In this document: positions 1-29,672 of the stretch, one piece after another
Layout of the letters: each line of letters begins with the position of its first letter
Numbering within the stretch: position 1 is the first letter of the stretch
Assembly (NCBI GenBank): GCA_036265815.1
Contig: DATAOI010000076.1
Location: 1-57,385 of the forward strand
Source of the DNA: Gemmatimonadales bacterium
GTDB taxonomy: Bacteria > Gemmatimonadota > Gemmatimonadetes > Gemmatimonadales > GWC2-71-9
Direction: 5' to 3'
Length of the DNA stretch: 57,385 nt
Translations under genes and position numbers: made by a program
Notes under the pieces: model-generated
Databases searched by the model: none
Told to the model about the DNA's origin: nothing
Seen by the model: the letters and a program-made list of their open reading frames with translations, nothing else

Positions 1-2
1 CC

Positions 3-527
3 GGGTGGGGCCCCCGCGCACTCCTCAGCAGGGTAGCGCACTGGAGTACCGAGCTGCTCACGCCGCAGCCGCTCCAGGCAGCCGTCGCGGTGAAGACGGG
101 CTCCAGCGGAACGACCAGCGGCTTCAAGAGCAAGTTCAAGACGAATGGGGTGTCGACCCTGACGGTGACCTTCACCGCTCCGGGCAGCAAGGGGCCGAAG
201 CTCGGGAAGCCGTTCAACGCGACCGTCACCGTCACCGCTCTGGATGACCAATCGGTTGCCACGGGCGTACTCAACACCTGTGTCTACATCAAGGGCTCCA
301 ACAACAATGGGACCCCCACCCGGGTGCAGGGTCCCAAGGATCCCGCGTGCCTCACTCCGCCCGCGCCAACACCCGACACGGTGTCCGCGGTGACCGGAGC
401 GGGCGGGACGGCAACCCTCAGCCTTACCGTCACCAAGTCGGGCGGTCTGGTCCTCACTGCCAACGCCAATGTGATCGGCCGGACTGGTGCCGGTGTTGGG
501 ATGGTCAAGACCAACGTCGCCCCGTAA
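3..527 (+). CDS. C-terminal part of an Ig-like domain surface/secreted protein (5' end outside window)
   Basis: The frame is open to the left edge of the window and ends with TAA at 525-527, so the start lies outside; a GTG at 90 is the first usable internal start. The product is rich in Thr, Ser, Val and Gly, with alternating beta-strand patterns such as VSTLTVTFTAPGSKG and GTATLSLTVTKSGGLVLTANA, typical of one or two Ig-like (Big-type) beta-sandwich domains of exported bacterial proteins. Two Cys (in LNTCVY and DPACLT) could form a disulphide. The first 29 codons look less Ig-like and may be linker. A strong terminator follows. The family cannot be fixed from this fragment. Confidence 0.6.
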   Translation, partial: GWGPRALLSRVAHWSTELLTPQPLQAAVAVKTGSSGTTSGFKSKFKTNGVSTLTVTFTAPGSKGPKLGKPFNATVTVTALDDQSVATGVLNTCVYIKGSNNNGTPTRVQGPKDPACLTPPAPTPDTVSAVTGAGGTATLSLTVTKSGGLVLTANANVIGRTGAGVGMVKTNVAP

Positions 528-552
528 CGCGTACCCTGACGGCTTTCGCTTT

Positions 553-587
553 GAGAGGGCGGCTCGCCAGAGCCGCCCTCTCTTTTT
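553..587 (+). terminator. Rho-independent terminator
   Basis: A perfect 12-bp stem (GAGAGGGCGGCT paired with AGCCGCCCTCTC) with a six-base loop is followed at once by TTTTT. It lies 26 bases after the stop of the Ig-like gene and points along the plus strand. The minus strand has no T-run beyond the stem, so it is not an obvious terminator for the convergent arginine operon ending at 617. Confidence 0.88.
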
Positions 588-616
588 CGCGGGTCAACCA
601 ACGATGCGCAATCCGC

Positions 617-1063
617 TCAGCCAAGCGAAAGCTTCCGCACCTCGGCGATGACCCGGCGCTGGGCCCTGGCGTCCTTGACGGCCAGGAAGATGGTATCGTC
701 GCCGGCCAGCGTGCCCACCACGTCGGACCACGCCAGCCGGTCGATGGCCACCGCCACCCGGTTGGCTTCACCCGGGGGCGTGTGCAGGACGACGAGCGCC
801 TCGCCGGCCGGCTCTATGCTCAGGACTCCCTCCGAAATGCGAAGCTCGTCCGGGTCCGCGGGCGGCCGGATCGAGGCGGACCGCCGGTAGGCGCCATCCA
901 CCTTGACCAGCCGCAGTGCCGCGATGTCACGGCTGACCGATGACTGGGTGACGTCCCATCCCTCGGAGGCCAGCGCCTCCGCCAGCTCCTCCTGGGTACG
1001 GACCGCACGAGTGCTGATCAGCTCGAGGATCTTGAGGTGGCGCTTGCGCCGGTCGGTCGTCAT
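617..1063 (-). CDS. argR: Arginine repressor ArgR
   Basis: 148 residues, the usual ArgR length. The N-terminal winged helix carries the recognition-helix motif TQSSVSRDI (about 39-47). The C-terminal oligomerisation and arginine-binding domain carries GTLAGDDTIFLAV (about 117-129), matching the family's GTIAGDDT motif. It starts at ATG 1063 and overlaps the argH stop by four bases (ATGA), so it is the last gene of the arginine operon and should regulate it and itself. The likely target is the ARG box at 9996-10020. A hexameric arginine-dependent repressor is inferred from the family. Confidence 0.95.
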   Translation of the reverse strand: MTTDRRKRHLKILELISTRAVRTQEELAEALASEGWDVTQSSVSRDIAALRLVKVDGAYRRSASIRPPADPDELRISEGVLSIEPAGEALVVLHTPPGEANRVAVAIDRLAWSDVVGTLAGDDTIFLAVKDARAQRRVIAEVRKLSLG

Positions 1064-2445
1064 CCTGCCCGAGCCCGGGTGCGGCCGGCCAGCCGCTGCA
1101 TCGCGGCGTCGAAGCGCCGCCGCTCGCGCGCGGCCCAGCTCCGCGCGCGCCGGATTCGAGCGCGCGCCTGGGGGAGACCCAGATCACCGAGCCCCCCGGC
1201 GGACGACCGCCGGGCCAGGATGTGGGTGGGGGCTGGAGAAACGAATCGCTCGCCACGGGTGAGCGCGGCCGCCACCTCCCGATGCGCCAGGCGGAACGGC
1301 TGACCCAGCTCGACCCGGCGCATGACCTCGTCGGTCGCCAACGTCCCGCCCGCGAGCGCGGCCGAGCAGCGCGCGCGATCGACGCCAAGCCGGGGAACCG
1401 CGCTCGCCATCATCCCGAGCATCGCCGCGGTGCGGTCGAGCCCGCGCATGAGCGGCTCCTTCAGAAGCTGGAAGTCCCGATGGTAACCGCCGGCGAGCTT
1501 GCCCTTGATCTGCAGCACGGCGACGAGGTCCCCCTCCAGCGCGGCGGCCCGGGCCCGGGTGAGCTCGAACAGATCGGGATTGCGCTTGTGGGGCATGATG
1601 CTCGACCCGGTGGCGAGCTCCGCCGGCAGGATCAGGTAGCCGAACTCCTCCGCGCTCAGGAGAATCACGTCCGCCGAGAGCCGCTGCAGCTCGTGGCCCA
1701 GCTGGGAGCACCAGAAGAGCGCGGCGGCCTCCAGCTTGCCCCGCCCGCCCTGCACCGTAGCGACGTTCCGGTCCAGCCCGCCGAAGCCGAGCGCCCGCGC
1801 CACCAGCGCCCGGTCGAGCGGGAGCGGCACGCCGTACCCCGCCGCGCTTCCCAGCGGCGAGCGATCCACCTGGGTCCACAGCGCCGGAAGCGCCTCGATC
1901 GTATCGAGCATGCCTTCCGCGTACGCTCCCGCCCAGAGCCCGACCGATGACGGCATGGCTCGGCGCTGATGGGTGTAGCCGGGCCAGAGCACCGTCCGGT
2001 GGCGGGAGGCAAAGGAGACCAGCTCCTCCGCCAGCGCAAGCGCCGCCTGGTGCAGCGACCAGAGGGAGTGCTTGAGGAAGAGCCGCAGGTCGCAGGCAAC
2101 CTGATCGTTTCGCGACCGACCCGTGTGGAGCCGCTCGCCGATGCCCGGCAGGCGCCGCGTCAGCCATTCCTCGACCGCGGTATGGATGTCCTCGTGACGG
2201 CGCGCGACCGCCAGATGCCCCGAATCCACCGCCGCCAGCGCCTGCCGAAGCCCGCGGCGGAGCCGGCCGTACTCGGCGCCGCTCAGGAGACCCGCGGCGC
2301 GGAGCCCTTCGATGTGCCCCAGGCTGCCGAGCACGTCCCACCGCAGCAGCCGCGAATCCCATGGCCGGTCGTCACCAGCGGTGTACTCGAGCACCGCCCG
2401 GTCGGGGGCGCTCGAGGCGCTCCAGAGGGTGGTCGGCCTGGCCAC
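1060..2445 (-). CDS. argH: Argininosuccinate lyase
   Basis: 461 residues, GTG start at 2445. It splits argininosuccinate to arginine and fumarate, the last step of the pathway. The fumarase/aspartase superfamily signature GSSIMPHKRNPD, which holds the catalytic Ser loop, is intact, as is HTGRSRNDQVACD. The catalytic His region reads PGYTHQRRAMPSS, where many ArgH have THLQRAQP; from memory similar AMPSS versions occur in argininosuccinate lyases of acyl-ornithine carbamoyltransferase pathways. It lies four bases after the M20 gene and overlaps argR. The Arg-rich C-terminal tail is unremarkable. Confidence 0.95.
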   Translation of the reverse strand: MARPTTLWSASSAPDRAVLEYTAGDDRPWDSRLLRWDVLGSLGHIEGLRAAGLLSGAEYGRLRRGLRQALAAVDSGHLAVARRHEDIHTAVEEWLTRRLPGIGERLHTGRSRNDQVACDLRLFLKHSLWSLHQAALALAEELVSFASRHRTVLWPGYTHQRRAMPSSVGLWAGAYAEGMLDTIEALPALWTQVDRSPLGSAAGYGVPLPLDRALVARALGFGGLDRNVATVQGGRGKLEAAALFWCSQLGHELQRLSADVILLSAEEFGYLILPAELATGSSIMPHKRNPDLFELTRARAAALEGDLVAVLQIKGKLAGGYHRDFQLLKEPLMRGLDRTAAMLGMMASAVPRLGVDRARCSAALAGGTLATDEVMRRVELGQPFRLAHREVAAALTRGERFVSPAPTHILARRSSAGGLGDLGLPQARARIRRARSWAARERRRFDAAMQRLAGRTRARAG

Positions 2446-2449
2446 GCCG

Positions 2450-3520
2450 CTAGTGCTCCCCGAGATACGCGGTCACGAGCCCGGCGTAGAACTCGCGCGC
2501 GGCGGTGACCTCGGGCAGATCGACGTACTCGTCGGCCGTGTGCGAGCGCCGGCTGGTGCCGGGGCCGCACTTGATCGCGTCGGTGTGCCGGAGAAAAACC
2601 CAGTCGGAGCAGGTCGGACTCCCGAAGGTCCTGGCCTTGGGACGGACCCGGCGGGCCGCGGCGAGAAGCGGTGAGCCCGGGGGCGTCTCGCAGGGGACCA
2701 TGCGCCGGGAGGTGACCACGACCGTCGACTCGAGCGCGCGCTGCAGCACCTGGGTGATCTCCTCGTGGCTCCAGTCCGGCGTGCTGCGGATGTCGAGCAC
2801 GGCCTTGGCCACGGGTGGCGTCACGTTGCGGCTGATGCCCGCCTCCAGCATCGTCGGCGTCGCGGTGGTCTGACCCAGCACCGGATGCGCTCGGGAATCG
2901 AAAAGGTCCTGCAGCCGCAGCAGGTCGCGTGCGAGGACCAGCGCGGCGTTGGTGAAATCCCCATCGGCCGACGCGTAGCCGGCGTGACGCTGGTGCCCCT
3001 GGGCGATCAGGTCGGCCATGAGGAGCCCCCGTTGCGCAACGGCGACGTCGAGACTGGTCGGCTCGCCGACCACCGCCGCCTCGATAGCGCCCGCGCGGGC
3101 GACCGCCCGCTCCATCGTGGTGTTCTTGGTCTCCTCGCCGTACCCGAGCAATACCAGCAGGCGCCCCGCCGCGAGGCCGCCGGCATCCAGCAGGTCCTTC
3201 GCGGCGCAGAGCATGGCAGCCACCGAGGCCTTGGCATCGCCCGAGCCACGGCCATAGAGGCGGCCGTCCTCGATGAACGGGGTGAACGGATCGCGGGTCC
3301 ACCCGCTGCCCGGCGGCACCACGTCGAGATGGGAGACCAGAGCGATGGTTGCGCCCGGGGCGCGGCCGCGGAGCTCGACCCGGACCGCGGCATCGTCCCG
3401 GGTCACCTCGAGACCCCACCCGCGCGCGGTCTCCTCGAGGAAGGAGGCCAGGGTTGCCTCGTCGCCGCTCACCGACGGAATTGCCACGATGTCTCGCAGG
3501 AGCTGGACCTCATCCGGCAA
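2450..3520 (-). CDS. M20 family deacylase, predicted N-acyl-citrulline deacylase (ArgE-like)
   Basis: 356 residues. The start is TTG at 3520, preceded by GGAG six bases upstream and overlapping argB by 11 bases. It has the complete M20 di-zinc set: H64 and D66 in SHLDVV, D95 in GRGSGDAKA, the catalytic pair E129-E130 in YGEETKN, E153 in VVGEPTS and H327 in RRSHTADEY. A dimerisation domain lies between about 165 and 275. The neighbour argF' makes an N-acylated citrulline, so this enzyme most likely removes the acyl group to free citrulline. Whether acetyl or succinyl is removed depends on argF' (Val92 predicts succinyl). LysK/ArgE-type deacylase on ornithine is the alternative, but it fits the operon less well. 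Confidence 0.85.
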   Translation of the reverse strand: MPDEVQLLRDIVAIPSVSGDEATLASFLEETARGWGLEVTRDDAAVRVELRGRAPGATIALVSHLDVVPPGSGWTRDPFTPFIEDGRLYGRGSGDAKASVAAMLCAAKDLLDAGGLAAGRLLVLLGYGEETKNTTMERAVARAGAIEAAVVGEPTSLDVAVAQRGLLMADLIAQGHQRHAGYASADGDFTNAALVLARDLLRLQDLFDSRAHPVLGQTTATPTMLEAGISRNVTPPVAKAVLDIRSTPDWSHEEITQVLQRALESTVVVTSRRMVPCETPPGSPLLAAARRVRPKARTFGSPTCSDWVFLRHTDAIKCGPGTSRRSHTADEYVDLPEVTAAREFYAGLVTAYLGEH

Positions 3521-4445
3521 GATCGACTCCGAGGTAGGTGGCCTTCTCCTTGCGGCCGACGATCATAGTGCCACAGCCCGCCCCGGTGAAGACCTCCAGC
3601 AGCAGCGCGTCGGGAGCGCGGCCGTCGATGATGTGGGTGCGCTCGACCCCGCCGGTGGCCGCCCGGATGCAGGCCTCCACCTTGGGCCGCATTCCACCTG
3701 CCAGGACGCCACTGGCCATGAGGCCGGCGAGGTCGTCGGGGTCGGCAAAGGTGACGAGGGTGGTCGGGTCCTTCCGGTCGCGGAGCACGCCGGGGGCGCC
3801 GGTGAGGAAGATGAGCTTCTGGGCCCGGAGCGCCACCGCGAGCGACTCCGCCACGGTGTCGGCATTCACGTTGAACACCTCCCCATCCTCTCCGCCCGCC
3901 AGGCTGGCGACCACCGGGACGAACCGCGCTTCCATGAGGGTGGTGAGGATCCGGGGGTCGACCCGCTGGATATCGCCCACGTGGCCGAAGTCCACCTTCA
4001 GCGTGGCACCGTCGTCGTCCACCACGTTGCCGGGCGGGCGGCGGTGGGCGGTGATGAGGTCGGCGTCCACCCCGCTCAGTCCCACCGCCTGCACCCGGTG
4101 CTCCCGGAGCGCAGCGAGCAGGTCGACATTGAGCTGGCCGGCGTAGACCATCTTGGCCACTTCAAGTGCCGCGTCGTCGGTGATCCGGCGCCCCGCCACG
4201 ATGCGCGGCTCGGTGCCGAGCCGGCGGCTCAGGTTGGACGCCTGCGGCCCTCCGCCGTGGACCACGACCAGCCGGATGCTGAGGGAGGAGAGCAGCGCGA
4301 GCTGGGCGGTCACGTGATCGAGCACCTCCGGCTCTCCCACCACGTCGCCGCCCAGCTTCACGACGAAGACCTGATCGCGATACGCTCGCACATAGCGCAG
4401 CGCCCCTTTGAGGCCCGCGATGCCCTTGCTGGTGTCGATGGTCAC
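3510..4445 (-). CDS. argB: N-acylglutamate kinase
   Basis: 311 residues from GTG at 4445. This start overlaps the argF' stop as GTGA and places the VTIDTSKG terminus correctly; longer upstream reading is Arg/Gly-rich shadow. Amino-acid kinase fold: nucleotide-loop VVKLGGDVVGEP near residue 30, substrate-loop VVHGGGPQASN, and the C-terminal FNVNADTVAESLA and GMRPKVEA motifs. It phosphorylates the gamma-carboxylate of N-acetyl- (or N-succinyl-) glutamate. No GNAT acyltransferase domain is fused, unlike the bifunctional ArgB-ArgA of xanthomonads, so the acyl-glutamate must come from elsewhere. Confidence 0.93.
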   Translation of the reverse strand: MTIDTSKGIAGLKGALRYVRAYRDQVFVVKLGGDVVGEPEVLDHVTAQLALLSSLSIRLVVVHGGGPQASNLSRRLGTEPRIVAGRRITDDAALEVAKMVYAGQLNVDLLAALREHRVQAVGLSGVDADLITAHRRPPGNVVDDDGATLKVDFGHVGDIQRVDPRILTTLMEARFVPVVASLAGGEDGEVFNVNADTVAESLAVALRAQKLIFLTGAPGVLRDRKDPTTLVTFADPDDLAGLMASGVLAGGMRPKVEACIRAATGGVERTHIIDGRAPDALLLEVFTGAGCGTMIVGRKEKATYLGVDLAG

Positions 4446-21134: not shown

Positions 21135-22181
21135 TCAGCTCGGGCTGGTACCCGCCAGCGCCGGATCGAGGGCCTCGGGATCATCGCCCTTGCCCTCGAG
21201 ATACTCCGCCCGGTACATCCGGATGAGCTCGAAGAAATAGGAGATCGCCAAGGGACCGATGAGCAGGCCGAGCAGGCCGAACCAGTTGATTCCCGCCAGG
21301 GCGCCGATCACCGTGATGAAGGGATGGATCTGAGCCCACCGGCGGAACACCACGGGCCGGATGACGTTGTCGACGTTGGCCACAACCAGGATCCCCCAGA
21401 GCACCAGCCCGATCGCGAGCCCGTAGTGATGATCCAGGGCCAGCGCCGCGGCGCCCGGGCCCCACACCAGCCCGCTGCCGACCACCGGCAGGATGGCGAA
21501 GATCACCGTCACCACTCCCCAGAAGAGGGCATTGGAGAGTCCGGTCACCCAGAAGGCGAGTCCCACCAGGACTCCCTGCACCATCGCGGTGAGTCCGGTG
21601 CCCACCAGCGTCGAGATGGTCACGTCGTGGAACCGCTGCCGCAGGATCTCGGCGTTGCGGGACGAAAAGGGAATGAAGGGACGCACTCCGCTCCAGGCAC
21701 CCCTCGGCGCCACCAGCAGATAAAACAGACCGAAGAACGTGATGGTGAGCTGAATGCCCAGCCGGGTGGCGGTGCCGATCGCGCTCAGTGCACTGCTGCC
21801 GATCCAAGAGACCACCTGGGCGCCGAGGGCCTCGATCTGCGCTCCGATATCGTAGGGCCCGACCCTGAGCTCCCGCAGCCGGGCCAGGACCGGGCTCCGA
21901 ATCACCCGGGTGGCCATGTCCTGCGCCTCGTTGGCGATCAGCCCGACGAACGAGATCCCCGGCCCCACCACCAGCACGATGGCCAGAACCAGGACGACCG
22001 CCGCCGCTTTTCCGGGCGAGAGCCAGCGCGTGAGCCACCGGTGCACTGGCCGGAAAATGACGAACAGGACGGGGGCCCCGACCAACCCGGTGATGAACGG
22101 CCAGAGCGCATAGACTAAGCCGATGCCCAGCAAGAGGATCAGGGAAGCGGCCCGGTACTGCTTGGTATCGAGGAAAGCCAT
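21135..22181 (-). CDS. AI-2E family transporter (YdiK/PerM-like)
   Basis: 348 residues from ATG 22181 (MAFLDTKQYRAAS); earlier GTG codons add eight unlikely residues. Seven to eight hydrophobic helices follow the family plan: an N-terminal pair (SLILLLGIGLVYALWPF and AAVVLVLAIVLVVGP), a soluble middle part (about 90-150), then the C-terminal bundle with the conserved motifs ILPVVGSGLVWGPGA, VDNVIRPVVF and GLLGLLIGPLAISYFFEL. Members move small molecules or ions, some act as Na+/H+ antiporters and some were linked to AI-2. The substrate here is unknown. It is divergent from the sensor gene at 22317. Confidence 0.9.
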   Translation of the reverse strand: MAFLDTKQYRAASLILLLGIGLVYALWPFITGLVGAPVLFVIFRPVHRWLTRWLSPGKAAAVVLVLAIVLVVGPGISFVGLIANEAQDMATRVIRSPVLARLRELRVGPYDIGAQIEALGAQVVSWIGSSALSAIGTATRLGIQLTITFFGLFYLLVAPRGAWSGVRPFIPFSSRNAEILRQRFHDVTISTLVGTGLTAMVQGVLVGLAFWVTGLSNALFWGVVTVIFAILPVVGSGLVWGPGAAALALDHHYGLAIGLVLWGILVVANVDNVIRPVVFRRWAQIHPFITVIGALAGINWFGLLGLLIGPLAISYFFELIRMYRAEYLEGKGDDPEALDPALAGTSPS

Positions 22182-22252
22182 GGCACAAGAGTACGCCTCC
22201 ACCACCAGACTCGCCAGCAGGTGCCTGTATTTGCATGGGCTTGCCGAGGGGC

Positions 22253-22279
22253 GTACCGCAACGCGACATTACGCGGTAC
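22253..22279. promoter_or_regulatory. Inverted repeat in a divergent promoter region
   Basis: GTACCGC (22253-22259) and GCGGTAC (22273-22279) form a perfect 7-bp dyad with a 13-base spacer between the divergent transporter and sensor genes. Position and symmetry suit an operator, but no cognate regulator is known. Confidence 0.3.
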
Positions 22280-22316
22280 TTGCCCACCAGTCGGAAACCC
22301 CATCGGAGTCGCGGAC

Positions 22317-23513
22317 GTGAGCCAGGGGAAGGATCCATCGGCCGTGCCCCGGCCTCCGGTGCGCGTCCAGGCGAAGCGTGCAGCCGACCCGACGGAAGAG
22401 GGCCGGGAGCCGGCGTACGATCGGCTGGCCCGGCTGGCCTGCACGCTGCTGGGCGCTCCGCTCGCGCTCGTAGTGCTGCGGGATGGCGATCGCGAGGCTC
22501 TCAAGGGTCAACATGGGCTCCCGGCCGCCGGTGTCGCCGAGCCGCCGCTCGACCTCTCCTTCCGCGATTTGGTGGCACCAGGCCCTGCCGGCATTGTGGT
22601 GGAAGACGTCCGGGCATCGAGCGACTGGGCCACTCACCCACGGCTCAGGCGGCTCGGGGTCGGCTCGTTCGCCAGCGTACCCCTGCTCGCTTCCGATGGC
22701 CTGATCCGTGGCGGCCTCTGGGTTCTGCAGCCGGGTCAGAGGCGCTGGACACCGGACGATCTCGGCGTCCTCCAGGAGCTCGCAGCCCAGGCGACGGAGG
22801 ACCATGACCTGCGGATGGCCGCGGGGGCGGAGCTGGAGCGCGCCCGGGTCATGGGGCGGCTGGCGGGAGGAATCACCCACGAGTTCAACAACCTGTTGAC
22901 CACCATCCTCGGGCATGCTGCGCTGCTGCTGGAAGAGGCCGGGCTCTCCCCGCGGGGCCGCGAGGACGTGGGCCAGATTCAGCGCGCCAGCGAGCGCGCG
23001 GCGACCCTGGTCCGCCAGCTCCTTCCCCTCAGGGGGCAGAGCGGCGGCTACGGCGTCATCGAGGGAGAATCGGGAAGCGGGTCGCACGCCGCGCCCTCGG
23101 AGCAGAGCGCCGAGTCGGGCGGGCCGCACGAGACCATCCTGCTGGTGGAGGACGAAGCGCAGGTCCGCGAGCTCACCCACCGAGTACTCGAGCGGGCGGG
23201 CTATACCGTGCTCGCCGCGGGTGACGCCGAGGCTGCCGGCGCGCTGGCGGATCGGCATGCCGGGCATATCCACCTGCTGCTCACCGACATGATGCTGCCG
23301 AGCGCGAGCGGCCGGGAGCTGGCCGCTCGGCTCTCCATTCACCGGCCCGCCGTCAAGGTGCTCTACATCTCAGGCAGCAGCGACGAGGCGATCGCGCGGC
23401 ACCGGCTGCTCCAGCCGGGGACCGAGTTGCTGGAGAAGCCGTTCTCGCTCGACCGCCTGCTCCACACGGTGCGCCAGGTGCTGCGCACAAGCGATGGAGT
23501 GTGCCGGCGGTGA
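22317..23513 (+). CDS. GAF-HisKA-receiver protein lacking the kinase ATPase domain
   Basis: 398 residues from GTG 22317 (GGAG eight bases upstream). Residues 32-165 are a GAF domain (LACTLLGAPLALVVLRDGD ... FASVPLLASDGLIRGGLWVL). Residues 176-236 are a HisKA helix pair with H188 in GGITHEFNNLLTTILGH. At about 237-241 the chain jumps directly to QSGGYGVIEGESGSGS, which looks like the last strand of a HATPase domain. The N, G1 and F boxes (about 110 residues) are missing. A full receiver follows (E278-D279, D324, S352, K374). It cannot autophosphorylate, so it may act as a receiver scaffold or phosphate sink, or be decaying. The following gene fragment supports local decay. Confidence 0.8.
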   Translation: MSQGKDPSAVPRPPVRVQAKRAADPTEEGREPAYDRLARLACTLLGAPLALVVLRDGDREALKGQHGLPAAGVAEPPLDLSFRDLVAPGPAGIVVEDVRASSDWATHPRLRRLGVGSFASVPLLASDGLIRGGLWVLQPGQRRWTPDDLGVLQELAAQATEDHDLRMAAGAELERARVMGRLAGGITHEFNNLLTTILGHAALLLEEAGLSPRGREDVGQIQRASERAATLVRQLLPLRGQSGGYGVIEGESGSGSHAAPSEQSAESGGPHETILLVEDEAQVRELTHRVLERAGYTVLAAGDAEAAGALADRHAGHIHLLLTDMMLPSASGRELAARLSIHRPAVKVLYISGSSDEAIARHRLLQPGTELLEKPFSLDRLLHTVRQVLRTSDGVCRR

Positions 23514-23778
23514 GTGCGCCGGCTCCCGTCCGGCAGCAGGACGGTGCGATCGATCTCATGGTCACCGACCTGGTCATGGCCCGGATGAGCGGGCACGAGC
23601 TGGTGGACCACTCGCGTCCGCTGGACCAGCCATGCGGCTGCTCTAGGTGACCGGGTATTCCCAGGAGGCGATCGCCCGCCAGGGGCGGCTCACCGAGGGG
23701 GCGGAGCTCCGGCCCAAGCCGTTCACCCCCGGCGTCCTCACCGCCAAGATCCGTCAGATCCTCGACCGGACCTCCTGA
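23510..23778 (+). pseudogene. Broken response-regulator receiver domain
   Basis: From GTG 23510 the frame reads a receiver core (GAIDLMVTDLVMARMSGHELV, phospho-Asp in VTDLVM) up to LDQP. The receiver sequence then continues in another frame as MRLL, an in-frame TAG at 23646-23648, VTGYSQEAIARQGRL and ELRPKPFTPGVLTAKIRQILDRTS, ending at TGA 23776-23778. A one-base loss near 23630 and a nonsense change where Tyr or Phe is expected explain both lesions. The part before about residue 10 is also missing. It overlaps the end of the preceding gene and looks like a degraded duplicate receiver. Confidence 0.8.
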
Positions 23779-23816: not shown

Positions 23817-26471
23817 GTGGTTCCAACCATCTCCGATTTGTCCCGTCTCCTGGCCCCACCCATGCTGCTGGCCGCCGGCGCCGCCCTGACGGGCATCGCC
23901 CTGATCGTGCTGTTCCTGCTCCAGCTGCGGGCCAGACGGCGGGCGGAACGCACCGCCACCGCAGCGAGGGTTGAGCTGAGGACGGTCACGGCCACCATGC
24001 GGGAAGGGGTGATCGCGTACGATACCGACCTGCGCCTACTGTACGTCAACTCGGCGTTCGAGCGGTTGACCGGTTTTCCCGAAGAGGACCTGCGGGACCA
24101 GGACTTTCTGCAGTACATCCACCCGGACGACCGCCCCGCATTGCTGGGGGAGTGGGAGCGGCTGGCCCAGGGTGAGGGTCTCCGGGATCAGGAGTACCGG
24201 GTGATGACCCGCACCGGCGCCATCCGCTGGTGCGCCGGCGATTGGGAGCCGCTGCGCGACGAGACCGGCCGGCAGATCGGTGTCCTGGGCACCGGCTTCG
24301 ATATCACCGAGCGGAAGCTGGCCGAAGACGCCATGCAGAGCGACACCGACCTGCTCCAGGCGGTGATCGAGGTGCAGCAGGCCGTGGCGGCCGCGGGTCT
24401 CGACTCGGCCACGGTGATGCGGGTCATCGTCGAGCGCAGCCAGCGGCTCACCGGGGCCACCGGCGCGTGCATCGAAGTGATCGAGGGCGACGAGCTGGTG
24501 CCCAAGGTGCACCTGGGCACCGACCCGCCCCGTCTCAAGCTGGACGGGAGCCTCTCGGGGCTCAGCGTGAGGACCGGTGAGCTGCAGCGCAGCGCCGACA
24601 CCTTCGCCGACCCGCGGATCGGACACACCGCCTACCGCGAGCGCAACATCCGCTCGATGATGGTGGTGCCGCTCAAGGACGAGCAGCGCATCCTGGGCAT
24701 CCTCAAGGTGATCTCGACCGAGCCCCAGTCCTTCAGCGACCGCGATGCCAAGGCCCTCCGGCTCCTGGCCGGACTGGCGGGTGCCTCGCTGGGCCACGCG
24801 GCCGCCTTTGAGGGCCGGCAGACTCGGCTGGAAGAACGGACTCAGGCGCTGCAGGAGAGCGAGCAGCGGTTCAAGCAACTGGTCGATGTGGCCCAGGAGG
24901 GCATCTGGGTGGCGGACGACCGCGGCATCATCACCTACGTCAACCAGCGGATGGCCGAGCTGCTCGGCTACCAGAACGGCGCGATGCTGGGGCGGCCGGT
25001 CTACGAGTTCGTCGACGCCGGCTCCCGGTCGAACGCGCAGCGGGTCCTGTCCCGGCCCTCGGGTACCCAGGGCGAGAACCAGGATCTCCGCTTCCGCCGG
25101 CGCGATGGCACCGAGCTCTGGGGACTGGTCTCGGCCAGCCCGATCGTGGGCCGGGACGGCGGGACGATCGGCAGCGTCGGCATGGTCACGGACATTACCG
25201 CCCGGAAGCGCGCCGAGGACCGCCTGCGCCGCTCGGCGGAACGGCTGGCCATACTGCACGACATGGATCAGGCCATCCTGGCGGCCCGCTCTCCCGCCGA
25301 GATCGGCCGCGTCGCGCTGGGCCGGATGCGCCGGATGGTCACCTGTCAGCGCTGCAGCGTGGTGCTGTTCGATTTCCAGCGGGGTGAGGCGCAGATGCTC
25401 GCGGGCTACGCCGACGGCGTACCGCTCAAGACCGCGCCGCTCCCGCTGGAGACGTTCTCCCCAGCGGACGTGCTCCGGCACGGCTCCTCGCGGTACCTGG
25501 AGGACCTCGCCGCGGTGGAGACCCGGCCGCCGATCCTGCAGGACCTGTACGACGAGGGGATGCGGAGCGTGCTCTCGGTACCGCTCCTGGTGGACGGCGA
25601 AGCGATCGGCGAGGTCAACCTCGCCTCGACCACGCCGCAGGGCTTCGATCCCGAACACCGCGATATCGCGCAGGAGATCGCCACGCCGCTGGCCATCGCC
25701 ATCCAGCAGGCCCGGCTGCGCGAGGAGCTCGGGCGGCAAGCGGGGGACCTGGAGCGGCGGGTGGCCGAGCGGGGCGTGGAGCTCCGCGCGGCCACGGTGG
25801 AGCTGGAGACGCTGTTGTACTCGGTCTCCCATGACGTCCGCGATCCACTCCGGCACATCTGCGGGTTCACCCAGCTGTTGCTGGATGACGGAGGGTCCGC
25901 GCTCGACCCGGCCTCCAGGCACTACGCCGAGCGGGTCGGAGAGGCGGCCCGGCGGATGGCCGGCCTGGTGGACGACCTGGTCAACCTGTCCCGGGTCGGA
26001 CGCCAGGACCTGATGCGGCGCCCGGTGGACCTGGGATTCCTGGTCGAGGACCTGGTGAGTCAGCTCCAGGCGGAGGACAGCGACCGCTCGATCGAGTGGC
26101 GAATCGATCCGCTACCCACAGTGGATTGCGATGCCGCGCTCGCCCGGATCGCGCTGGGTGAGCTCCTCTCCAACGCGGTCAAGTTTACCCGCGGCCGGGA
26201 CGGGGTCGTCATCCAGGTCCGCGCCTTCGAGACCGATGGTCAGACCGGCGTGGCGGTACAGGACAATGGCGTAGGGTTCAACACGGCGCACGCCGGCAAG
26301 CTGTTCGGCGTGTTCCAGCGACTCCACCGGACGGGAGAGTTCGAAGGCAACGGCGCGGGACTGGCGCTGGTGCAGCGGATCGCGCACAAGCACGGCGGGC
26401 GGGTCTGGGCCGAGGGCGAGCCCGACCGGGGCGCCACGTTCTATCTGAGCTTCGGCGGTCCTCGCGTCTGA
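23817..26471 (+). CDS. Membrane-anchored PAS-GAF-PAS-GAF sensor histidine kinase
   Basis: 884 residues from GTG 23817. One membrane helix at about 14-37 is followed by PAS1 (55-170, ends GFDITERKLAED), GAF1 (185-325), PAS2 (345-465, ends TDITARKRAED), GAF2 (480-640), a coiled linker and HisKA with H672 in YSVSHDVRDPLRHICGF. The HATPase domain is complete: N box LLSNAVKFTRG, G1 QDNGVGF and G2 GAGLALVQRIAHKHGG. The HisKA style is that of phytochrome-like kinases that use stand-alone Rcp1-type regulators, and such a regulator follows with a one-base TGATG overlap. The signal is unknown. Confidence 0.92.
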   Translation: MVPTISDLSRLLAPPMLLAAGAALTGIALIVLFLLQLRARRRAERTATAARVELRTVTATMREGVIAYDTDLRLLYVNSAFERLTGFPEEDLRDQDFLQYIHPDDRPALLGEWERLAQGEGLRDQEYRVMTRTGAIRWCAGDWEPLRDETGRQIGVLGTGFDITERKLAEDAMQSDTDLLQAVIEVQQAVAAAGLDSATVMRVIVERSQRLTGATGACIEVIEGDELVPKVHLGTDPPRLKLDGSLSGLSVRTGELQRSADTFADPRIGHTAYRERNIRSMMVVPLKDEQRILGILKVISTEPQSFSDRDAKALRLLAGLAGASLGHAAAFEGRQTRLEERTQALQESEQRFKQLVDVAQEGIWVADDRGIITYVNQRMAELLGYQNGAMLGRPVYEFVDAGSRSNAQRVLSRPSGTQGENQDLRFRRRDGTELWGLVSASPIVGRDGGTIGSVGMVTDITARKRAEDRLRRSAERLAILHDMDQAILAARSPAEIGRVALGRMRRMVTCQRCSVVLFDFQRGEAQMLAGYADGVPLKTAPLPLETFSPADVLRHGSSRYLEDLAAVETRPPILQDLYDEGMRSVLSVPLLVDGEAIGEVNLASTTPQGFDPEHRDIAQEIATPLAIAIQQARLREELGRQAGDLERRVAERGVELRAATVELETLLYSVSHDVRDPLRHICGFTQLLLDDGGSALDPASRHYAERVGEAARRMAGLVDDLVNLSRVGRQDLMRRPVDLGFLVEDLVSQLQAEDSDRSIEWRIDPLPTVDCDAALARIALGELLSNAVKFTRGRDGVVIQVRAFETDGQTGVAVQDNGVGFNTAHAGKLFGVFQRLHRTGEFEGNGAGLALVQRIAHKHGGRVWAEGEPDRGATFYLSFGGPRV

Positions 26472-26926
26472 TGCTGCCCGATGAGCTCGATGTGCTCCTG
26501 GTCGAGGACGATCCTTCGGAGGCGGAGCTGATCCTGCGCGCGCTCAAGGGGGTGGACCCGTCCTGCCGGATGGGTGTGGCCCGCGACGGTGAGGAGGCAC
26601 TCGATTTCCTGCTCGCGCGCGGCCGCTTCCGCCACCGGCTGGGCGCGCCGCTGCCCCGCGTGATCCTGCTCGAGCTGAAACTGCCCAAGATCGATGGCGC
26701 CGAGGTGCTCCGAGCGCTCCGGGCCAGCCCCCGCACCAGCACCACCCCGGTGGTCATGCTCACGTCGTCGGCGGAGTCGCGCGAGGTGGCCCAGTGCTAC
26801 CAGCTCGGCGCCAACAGCTGCATCGAGAAGCCGGTGGAGTTCCGCGCCTTCGCCGAGACCATGCAGGCCTTGGGCGGCTACTGGCTGCGGCTCAACCAGA
26901 CCGCCGACTCCCAACTCTTCGTGTGA
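26471..26926 (+). CDS. Rcp1-type stand-alone response regulator with Asp-to-Glu phospho-site
   Basis: 151 residues, a receiver only. The acidic pocket E12-D13-D14, the switch T98 (VVMLTSS) and K120 (CIEKPV) are intact. The acceptor site reads VILLELKLPKIDG: E68 (codon GAG) replaces the usual Asp of VILLDLKLPK. Glu at this position cannot be phosphorylated normally and often mimics the active state. It overlaps the kinase stop by one base, so it is the apparent partner. Either the kinase signals through another regulator or this protein works independently of phosphorylation. The rest of the domain is well preserved. Confidence 0.92.
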   Translation: MLPDELDVLLVEDDPSEAELILRALKGVDPSCRMGVARDGEEALDFLLARGRFRHRLGAPLPRVILLELKLPKIDGAEVLRALRASPRTSTTPVVMLTSSAESREVAQCYQLGANSCIEKPVEFRAFAETMQALGGYWLRLNQTADSQLFV

Positions 26927-26933
26927 GGTCCCG

Positions 26934-29672
26934 TTGATCGCCCGATCCGATTGGATGCTGGCCACCTCTCTGCTGCTGCTTCCGCTTGCCCCACTCCGCG
27001 CCCAGTCGTCTCTGGAGATCCCCTACCAGCGCTTCGTGCTCCCCAACGGCCTCACCGTGCTGGTCCATGAAGACCACAAGGCGCCGATCGTGGCGGTGAA
27101 CGTGTGGTATCACGTCGGTTCCAAGAACGAGCGCCCAGGACATACCGGGTTCGCCCACCTGTTCGAGCACCTCATGTTCAACGGGAGCGAGCACTACGAC
27201 AAGGAATTCCAGGGACCGCTGGAGCGGGCCGGCGCCACCGATCTCAACGGCACCACCAACGAGGACCGGACCAACTACTTCGAGAACGTGCCCACCTCCG
27301 CCCTGGACCTGGCGCTCTGGCTCGAGTCGGACCGGATGGGACACCTGGTGGGGGCCATCAGCCAGGCCAAGCTGGACGAGCAGCGCGGCGTGGTGCAGAA
27401 CGAGAAGCGGGAGGGCGAGAACGCCCCCTACGGCAAGGTCTGGGACTTCCTCATCCCCAAGCTCTATCCGGCGAACCACCCCTACTCCTGGACCACGATC
27501 GGCTCGATGGAGGACCTCGACGCCGCCAAGCTGGACGACGTGAAGGGCTGGTTCCAGACCTACTACGGGGCGGCCAACGCCGTCGTGGCGATCGCCGGCG
27601 ACATCGACCTCAAGACGGCCCGGGAGAAGGTGGAGCGCTACTTCGGCGACATCCCCGCCGGGCCGCCGGTGGCGCGGCAGGACGAATGGATCGCCAAGCG
27701 GACCGGCAGCCAGCGCGGACGGATGCAGGACCGGGTGCCACAGGCGCGACTCTACAAGGTGTGGAACGTGCCTTCCTGGAGCTCGGCCGACGCGGACTAT
27801 CTGAATCTCGCGGCCTCGGTGCTGAGCGATGGCAAGTCCTCCCGGCTGTACAAACGGCTGGTGTACGAGGAACAGCTCGCCACCGACGTCGACGCGTCGC
27901 TCGATCTGCGGGAGATCGGTGGATTGTTCACCATCCAGGCCACTGCCCGCCCCGGGGTGGAGCTCTCGCGGGTGGAGCGGGCGGTCAACCAGGAGTTGGC
28001 GCGCTTCCTGGCCGGCGGCCCGACGCCAGCCGAGCTGCAGCGGGCCAAGACCCAGTTCCGCGCCGGCTTCATCCGCGGGATCGAGCGGATCGGCGGGCTA
28101 GGCGGCAAGTCGGACGTGCTGGCGCAAGGCGAGGTGTTCGCCGGGCGGGCCGACTTCTACCAGGTGCGGCTCAGGCGGGTGGCCGGCGCTACCGCGCAGC
28201 AGCTCCGGGGAGTGGCCACGCGGTGGCTCTCGGACGGCGATTACACGCTGGAGGTGCTGCCCTTCCCCGACTATGCCACGGCGGCCGGCGGCGTCGATCG
28301 CTCCAGGCTGCCCCAGCCGGGCACGCCGCGCGAGGCGGCATTCCCCGCGCTCGAGCGGACGACGCTCTCGAATGGTCTCAAGGTGGTGTTGGCCGAGCGG
28401 CGCTCGATCCCGCAGGTACGGTTCGACCTGCTGCTCGACGCCGGCTCCGCCTCCGACCAGTTCGCCTTGCCCGGCACCGCCAGCCTGGCAATGACGATGC
28501 TGGATGAAGGCACCCAGACCCACTCGGCGCTGGAGATCAGCGATCGGCTGGAGGAGCTGGGCGCCAATCTGGGCGCGGCGTCACGCCTGGATGTCTCCAG
28601 CGTGTCGCTGGAGGCGCTTCGGGACCAGCTGGAGCCGTCGCTGGAGCTCTATGCCGACGTTATCCTTCATCCCGCCTTCCGGCAGCGCGACCTCGACCGG
28701 CTCAAGAAGCAGCGTCTGGCCCAGATTCAGCGGGAGAAAGCCGATCCGGTCGGCATGGCGCTCCGGGTCTTCCCTCGGCTGGTCTACGGGCAGGGACACG
28801 CCTATGCCAACCCGTGGAGCGGCTCCGGCACCGAGGCGTCCGCCGCCCGGATCACCCGGGACGATCTGGTCAGATTCCACCAGACCTGGTTCAAGCCCAA
28901 CCACGCCACCCTCGTGGTGGTCGGGGCCACGACGATGGCCGAGGTCCGGCCCAGGCTCGAGCGGCTGTTCGCGGGATGGGCGCCGGGTGAGGTGCCCCGC
29001 AAGAATATCGGCGCTGTGGAGCAGCCGAAGCCCGCGGTTTACCTGCTCGACCGGCCGGGATCGCTGCAGTCGGTCATCATCGCGGGCGACGTGGCGCCGC
29101 CCAAGGCCAATCCGGACGAGCCCGCCATCGAGGTGATGGGTGCCGTGCTGGGGAGCGACTTCGGCTCCCGGCTCAACATGAACCTGCGGGAGGACAAGCA
29201 CTGGTCCTACGGCGCCTTCAGCTTCCTGCGAGACGCGCGGGGCCAGCGGCCATTCATCGCCTACGCACCGGTCCAGACCGACAAGACCAAGGAGGCGATC
29301 GTCGAGGTCCAGAAGGAGCTGCGCGGCATCCTGGGCGAGCGGCCCATCCTGCCGGACGAGCTGGAGCGGGCCAAGGCGTCGCTCACCCTGACGCTGCCGG
29401 GGTCATGGGAGACCATGGCCGCGCTGGCGGGCACCATCAGCGAGATCGTCTCCTTCGGGCTCGACGACCGCTACTACGATACCTATGCCCAGGCAGTCCG
29501 GGGGGAAACCGTGGCTACGATCACCGCGGCGGCCCAGCGCACCGTGGCCCCCGATCATCTGGTCTGGGTCATCGTGGGCGACCGGGCCAAGATCGAGCAA
29601 GGTCTCCGGGAGCTCAACCTCGGCGAGATCCACCTGATCGATCCCGATGGCAATCCGGTGCAGGCGTCCTGA
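26934..29672 (+). CDS. M16 family zinc protease (pitrilysin/insulinase-like), two-repeat
   Basis: 912 residues. TTG 26934 is chosen because GAGGT sits five bases upstream; ATG 26955 is an alternative. A signal peptide ends near LRAQSS. The N-terminal half carries the inverted zinc motif H75-L-F-E78-H79 in GFAHLFEHLMFNGS, with the distal ligand probably E156 in VVQNEKREGE. The C-terminal half repeats the fold from about 455 but has no HxxEH, as usual for the inactive partner lobe. It is a periplasmic or outer-membrane-associated peptidase that forms a clamshell. It starts seven bases after the response regulator; a functional link is uncertain. Confidence 0.93.
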   Translation: MIARSDWMLATSLLLLPLAPLRAQSSLEIPYQRFVLPNGLTVLVHEDHKAPIVAVNVWYHVGSKNERPGHTGFAHLFEHLMFNGSEHYDKEFQGPLERAGATDLNGTTNEDRTNYFENVPTSALDLALWLESDRMGHLVGAISQAKLDEQRGVVQNEKREGENAPYGKVWDFLIPKLYPANHPYSWTTIGSMEDLDAAKLDDVKGWFQTYYGAANAVVAIAGDIDLKTAREKVERYFGDIPAGPPVARQDEWIAKRTGSQRGRMQDRVPQARLYKVWNVPSWSSADADYLNLAASVLSDGKSSRLYKRLVYEEQLATDVDASLDLREIGGLFTIQATARPGVELSRVERAVNQELARFLAGGPTPAELQRAKTQFRAGFIRGIERIGGLGGKSDVLAQGEVFAGRADFYQVRLRRVAGATAQQLRGVATRWLSDGDYTLEVLPFPDYATAAGGVDRSRLPQPGTPREAAFPALERTTLSNGLKVVLAERRSIPQVRFDLLLDAGSASDQFALPGTASLAMTMLDEGTQTHSALEISDRLEELGANLGAASRLDVSSVSLEALRDQLEPSLELYADVILHPAFRQRDLDRLKKQRLAQIQREKADPVGMALRVFPRLVYGQGHAYANPWSGSGTEASAARITRDDLVRFHQTWFKPNHATLVVVGATTMAEVRPRLERLFAGWAPGEVPRKNIGAVEQPKPAVYLLDRPGSLQSVIIAGDVAPPKANPDEPAIEVMGAVLGSDFGSRLNMNLREDKHWSYGAFSFLRDARGQRPFIAYAPVQTDKTKEAIVEVQKELRGILGERPILPDELERAKASLTLTLPGSWETMAALAGTISEIVSFGLDDRYYDTYAQAVRGETVATITAAAQRTVAPDHLVWVIVGDRAKIEQGLRELNLGEIHLIDPDGNPVQAS

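Follow-up and report, generated by a model that had tools for sequence, protein, structure and literature searches.

The window analyzed here, that is, the whole stretch of 57,385 nucleotides from a Gemmatimonadales bacterium, carries three signaling genes, P3, P2, and P1, in that order and on the same strand, between an AI-2E-type permease gene on the opposite strand and an M16-type peptidase gene whose start is uncertain (TTG at 26934 or ATG at 26955) (Table 1). The three genes form a predicted operon, and a promoter and terminator scan across it returned nothing above chance that bears on this.

Table 1. Features of the P3-P2-P1 locus, in positions of the window.
Feature	Position	Strand	Remarks
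AI-2E-type permease	21135–22205	−	Conserved left border of the locus; named by sequence resemblance
P3 (H1), hybrid kinase GAF-HisKA-REC	22221–23513	+	430 aa; HATPase deleted in frame
P3 His220 codon	22878–22880	+
HATPase deletion junction in P3	23025–23036	+	RQLL / QSGG of orthologs
P3 receiver Asp356 codon	23286–23288	+	Intact
H2 remnant	23540–23769	+	Only C-terminal part of receiver; frame-shifted
In-frame TAG of H2 remnant	23644–23646	+
P2, sensor kinase PAS-GAF-PAS-GAF-HisKA-HATPase	23817–26471	+	884 aa; GTG start; catalytic motifs intact
P2 His672 codon	25830–25832	+
P2 stop codon TGA	26469–26471	+	Shares one base with P1 ATG (TGATG)
P1, Rcp1-type stand-alone receiver	26471–26926	+	151 aa; ATG start; pseudo-receiver by sequence (acceptor Asp lost)
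P1 Glu68 codon GAG	26672–26674	+	Phospho-acceptor position
P1 Cys117 codon	26819–26821	+	K-3, Y-T switch aromatic elsewhere; counted from the 26471 start
M16-type peptidase	26955–29672	+	Conserved right border in genus g1; named by sequence resemblance

P1, whose translated open reading frame contains RVILLELKLPKIDG, matches PF00072 in a Pfam scan (E 1.4e-18), with the receiver domain alone and no DNA-binding domain joined to it. Its structure model has a receiver fold (pLDDT 86) and finds its best structural matches among RcpA/Rcp1-type proteins (Z 19–21); having been built with mostly Asp-containing relatives, the model informs on fold only and not on the state that Glu68 favors. The phytochrome regulators Rcp1, RcpA, and DrRR (PDB 1K68, 1JLK, 6XVU, 5BRJ) represent the type that P1 matches best in sequence as well as structure, and they share with it a stand-alone receiver, a C-terminal arm (YWL..N in P1), and a gene directly 3′ of a kinase, here of the HisKA kind. 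P1 differs from them in lacking the functional acceptor Asp. The initial annotation had reported Glu, encoded by GAG, at this position, and we confirm it as Glu68 within VILLELKLPK. Its accompanying statement that all other receiver residues are intact is accurate for the acid pair Glu12/Asp13, Thr98, and Lys120, and Pro72 (D+4) and Gly76 (D+8) are also retained, but it does not extend to the aromatic residue of the Y-T switch, which is Cys117. With a receiver fold, four of the pocket residues present, and the acceptor Asp missing, P1 is by sequence classed as a pseudo-receiver, Rcp1-type by descent and not a working Rcp1-type switch. No second, canonical copy of P1 was found in its own genome, where the next match has 38% identity and lies within a 765-aa frame.

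The kinase partner appears fully equipped. Two PAS, two GAF, HisKA, and HATPase_c domains were matched in P2 by Pfam, and PHY is absent among these matches, which sets P2 apart from the phytochrome partners of Rcp1-type regulators. The His, Asn (Asn786, of the N box), and G-box motifs are retained in nine aligned P2 sequences of the genus over the parts present. A regulator overlapping a complete multisensor kinase, as first described, is thus what we find, by one base and with the P2 core intact; the missing Asp68 supports the earlier view that ordinary Asp phosphorylation is not available to the pair. For receivers with Glu68 or Ala68, the sequence would rule out canonical Asp phosphorylation, and its absence is strongly expected on chemical grounds.

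P3 has lost its ATPase domain, keeping the His of its DHp domain and a receiver with Asp356 (numbered D324 in the initial annotation, which applies if translation starts at 22317). The lost HATPase domain has no near copy elsewhere in the genome (best 55% identity), so there is no sign of a split P3 gene; the deletion may stem from misassembly. Between P3 and P2 lies the remnant of a second hybrid, whose sequence is 68% and 79% identical to that of the H2 hybrid of genome G041. A tree of hybrid receivers resolves two groups, H1 (P3 of the window, G040, G043, G045, G046, the first copy in G047, and G049; support 100/100) and H2 (G041, the second copy in G047, and G053; support 95/97). Within the family, close H1 copies (at least 57% over the kinase-receiver core) were found at this locus only. 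All H1 proteins retain the acid pair, Asp, Ser, and Lys of the receiver and the DHp His, and the N-box Asn of their ATPase core has been lost in G043, G045, G046, and G049, while the core looks intact in G040 and G047. In G047 (locus L120, about 1–4277), the P2 ortholog is preceded by two different hybrids in tandem, an H1 and an H2. The H2 receiver tail between P3 and P2 suggests that the window probably once had the arrangement H1-H2-P2-P1, as G047 still does.

Beyond the genus, the acceptor site hardly varies. We aligned 58 sequences from phyla ranging from Acidobacteria to archaea (55 from outside the genus, two canonical genus members, and P1), and Asp68 is present in 57/57 of the sequences other than P1, including 55/55 outside the genus; the same 57 all have Glu12, Asp13, Thr or Ser98, and Lys120. 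The K-3 position is Tyr or Phe in 55/55 relatives outside the genus. A tblastn search gave Asp in 136 of 140 matches, the four exceptions being the gene in the window and three orthologs of the genus (Glu, Glu, and Ala). Receivers without an acceptor Asp make up ~2–4% of all receivers, and Glu is their commonest replacement at 26% (PMC12632262, PMC4395418). Glu68 is therefore unusual for the family of P1, yet not unprecedented as a type of substitution.

Within the genus, nine genomes, the window genome included, have a syntenic P1, and the pocket has been lost among them by different routes (Table 2). At least one pocket residue is missing in 7/9 genus members, against 0/55 relatives outside, a comparison corrected neither for kinship nor for the choice of relatives by their similarity to the query. 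Conservation of Glu in relatives, to which the initial annotation had looked, is partial: G040 and G047 share it, G046 has Ala, and Asp stands in G042–G045 and G048. Relatives with Asp, which it had held to speak against Glu68 if joined by reads showing GAC, do exist, G042 and G048 being canonical and G043, G044, and G045 keeping Asp in altered pockets; the two independent orthologs with Glu argue against GAC. Among the genus orthologs without Asp68, then, three have Glu and one has Ala, and the sister group loses Thr while retaining Asp. By sequence comparison, what the orthologs appear to have in common is a lost dependence on phosphorylation, and not Glu itself. The K-3 residue is Cys in eight genus members and Trp in G042. 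Its aromatic is absent even beside canonical pockets, so its loss seems older than the decay of the phosphorylation pocket. Since regain of a complete pocket is unlikely, we take the canonical pocket to be the ancestral state, from which decay set in repeatedly; different residues are lost in the two genus clades, in G049, and in G053, which would amount to at least four separate decays. A second locus in G049 (L132) holds a separate pair of histidine kinase and Rcp1-type receiver with a canonical pocket, the decayed receiver of this genome being in L131.

Table 2. Receiver pocket residues of P1 and its orthologs (DD1, DD2, D, T, and K are positions 12, 13, 68, 98, and 120 of P1) and presence of a hybrid kinase upstream.
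Genome	Genus	DD1	DD2	D	T	K	Hybrid	Remarks
Window	Same	E	D	E	T	K	Present
G040	Same	E	D	E	T	K	Present
G047	Same	E	H	E	T	K	Present	His13 and Glu68
G046	Same	E	E	A	T	K	Present	Ala68 and Glu13
G043	Same	Q	D	D	V	K	Present	Gln12 and Val98; Asp68 kept
G045	Same	Q	D	D	M	K	Present	Gln12 and Met98; Asp68 kept
G044	Same	Q	D	D	T	K	Absent
G042, G048	Same	E	D	D	T	K	Absent	Fully canonical
G053	Other	Q	E	D	S	Missing	Present
G049	Other	E	G	A	T	K	Present	Ala68 and Gly13
G066	Other						Absent	Canonical receiver
G067	Other							Canonical receiver; upstream side beyond contig end

These orthologs bear on the interpretation that Glu68 is a true phosphomimetic, locking P1 in an active-like state so that its output is constitutive and governed by its expression level; a phosphomimetic Glu and, as one option, a constitutively active output were suggested in the initial annotation. 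Asp-to-Glu exchange activates some receivers, such as NtrC (cited in PMC4395418), CmrT, in which Glu is the native residue, has been inferred to act constitutively (PMC12548384), and P1 keeps the acid pair, Thr, and Lys. Glu by itself often does not activate, however (PMC4395418), and P1 has neither the Y-T switch aromatic nor an output domain. At the same locus, Ala68 occurs with Glu13 in G046 and His13 with Glu68 in G047, and the sister group dispenses with Thr98 and Glu12 while Asp68 stays. Phosphomimicry is thus possible for P1 of the window but leaves its orthologs unexplained, and we regard it as unlikely.

Pocket decay tracks the presence of the hybrid, here meaning sensor domains, HisKA, HATPase, and REC, with the upstream receiver intact. 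The permease and P2 are separated by a hybrid in the window, G040, G043, G045, G046, and G047, and directly adjoin each other in G042, G044, and G048. Counting DD2, D, T, and K, the pocket is decayed in 8/8 loci with an upstream hybrid and 0/4 without (Fisher p 0.002, uncorrected for kinship); including DD1, the figures are 8/8 and 1/4 (p 0.018, likewise uncorrected), the exception being G044, whose Gln12 despite the lack of a hybrid indicates that part of the pocket decay may start before a hybrid arrives or persist after its loss. The P2 tree offers three independent contrasts, all three concordant (sign test p = 0.25), a number with which the link cannot reach significance. G041, which has H2 upstream of P2, contributes no P1 as its contig ends after the kinase, and searches of the order and class with P2 yielded no genera beyond four. 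In six loci of other genera in the same family (L017, L021, L023, L025, L027, and L031), a canonical Rcp1-type receiver directly follows a hybrid kinase, with no P2-type kinase between them, so an adjacent hybrid alone does not cause decay.

A gene left functionless once the hybrid receiver had taken over, its pocket drifting, would fit the different substitutions in each lineage, and the H2 remnant and the P3 deletion indicate active erosion of the locus. Selection argues otherwise. The P1 reading frame is intact in all eight decayed loci, and dN/dS (Nei-Gojobori) for decayed P1 is 0.18 for both G043–G045 and G040–G046, 0.23–0.24 for other pairs in the latter clade, and 0.23–0.27 between the window and decayed orthologs. 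The same pairs give 0.16–0.33 for P2 and 0.18–0.25 for the M16-type peptidase, so that decayed P1 (0.18–0.27) matches the kinase and its other neighbor, which is not the signature of gene death. The D+4 Pro (9/9 genus members), the D+8 Gly (eight), and the C-terminal arm are retained as well; invariant in the genus are Glu17, Glu19, and Leu20 of alpha1, the alpha2 run Arg38–Asp45, the C-terminal YWL..N, and Asp75. Alpha1 is the face by which receivers dock on kinases in HK-RR complexes. Purifying selection acts on P1, which supports a P1 that is still functional, and we consider a dying gene improbable.

We know of no example of phosphorylated Glu in bacterial signaling, and it is very unlikely that P1 acts through phosphorylation of another residue, such as Asp75 or Glu68, or through another modification. 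Asp75 is invariant as noted, but as D+7 it would stand, by the model, at the start of alpha3, outside the pocket; phosphorylation of Glu is possible in principle (raised in PMC4395418), but position 68 is Ala in G046. A sequencing or assembly error behind Glu68, with GAC misread as GAG, can be set aside as extremely improbable even though the codons are one base apart and the assembly is a draft, because Glu also occurs in two further genomes of the genus, G040 and G047.

We propose instead that P1 is a pseudo-receiver whose acceptor role has passed to Asp356 of P3 and which is kept as a phosphorylation-independent partner, a reading that we prefer while holding it to be evenly balanced. P1 would be the ancestral, Rcp1-type partner of P2, no longer phosphorylatable on Asp, and the parts retained suggest that phosphoryl flow has been re-routed from P2 to Asp356 of the upstream P3. 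With no ATPase domain of its own in the window, P3 must depend on phosphorylation in trans, for which P2 is the likeliest source; the pair that stays intact is kinase P2 with receiver P3, and the pair that decays is receiver P1 with the P3 kinase core. Signaling from the kinase to the upstream receiver, an option raised in the initial annotation, gains comparative support from the correlation between hybrid and decay, the transfer itself being inferred. P1 could use alpha1 to dock on the P2 DHp helices, could pair with the P3 receiver, or could do both, and so tune P2-P3 signaling in place of accepting phosphate; conservation of alpha1 and the arm, together with proposals made for CmrT (PMC12632262), is consistent with such a phosphate-independent role. 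Counting against this proposal, the H1 hybrids of G040 and G047 have a complete kinase core and might phosphorylate themselves, and the P1 orthologs of G043 and G045, with Asp kept and Thr lost, might be phosphorylated weakly. More tentatively, the locus may represent a receiver-replacement series, in which, once a hybrid with a receiver of its own has settled between a permease gene and a kinase-regulator pair, the old regulator is repeatedly reduced to a pseudo-receiver and the ATPase of the newcomer decays, leaving a recombined pair of old kinase and new receiver together with a phosphorylation-independent adaptor. All stages, from canonical through half-decayed to fully decayed, are still represented in this genus and its relatives.

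The origin and control of bacterial pseudo-receivers have been called a mystery (PMC12632262), and nearly all those studied are orphans, whereas here the kinase remains adjacent, and canonical, intermediate, and decayed states occur among close relatives. This series makes the steps from a switch to a phosphate-independent partner testable with matched proteins, and it suggests a simple evolutionary trigger, namely a second acceptor entering the same gene run. A literature search, which covered subscription journals thinly, found no earlier description of hybrid-linked receiver decay. As a protein P1 is of a known kind; what is unusual is how informative its evolutionary setting is.

The nearest known case is CmrRST. 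CmrT, one of only two described non-orphan atypical regulators in bacteria (PMC12632262), has Glu at its acceptor site and shares a Clostridioides difficile operon with a kinase and with a receiver protein of normal type (PMC12548384); the P3-P2-P1 run likewise joins a Glu-bearing pseudo-receiver to an intact kinase and to another receiver protein in which Asp is retained. CmrT has a DNA-binding domain and a DGD motif, whereas P1 is a bare receiver with Glu12/Asp13 intact; the partner receiver of P1 lies within a truncated hybrid kinase, and its ortholog series shows stepwise decay. P1 also resembles the wider class of Asp-less receivers in its PF00072 fold and its Glu replacement (PMC4395418, PMC12632262), although most described bacterial cases are orphans, whereas P1 still stands beside its kinase and some of its orthologs at this locus within the genus are canonical. 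P3, for its part, recalls the pseudo-histidine kinases (discussed in PMC12632262) in keeping the DHp His and receiver without an ATP-binding domain. It differs from them in that the domain has been cleanly deleted in frame in one genome and has decayed at the N box in others, and in that an intact kinase lies next to it.
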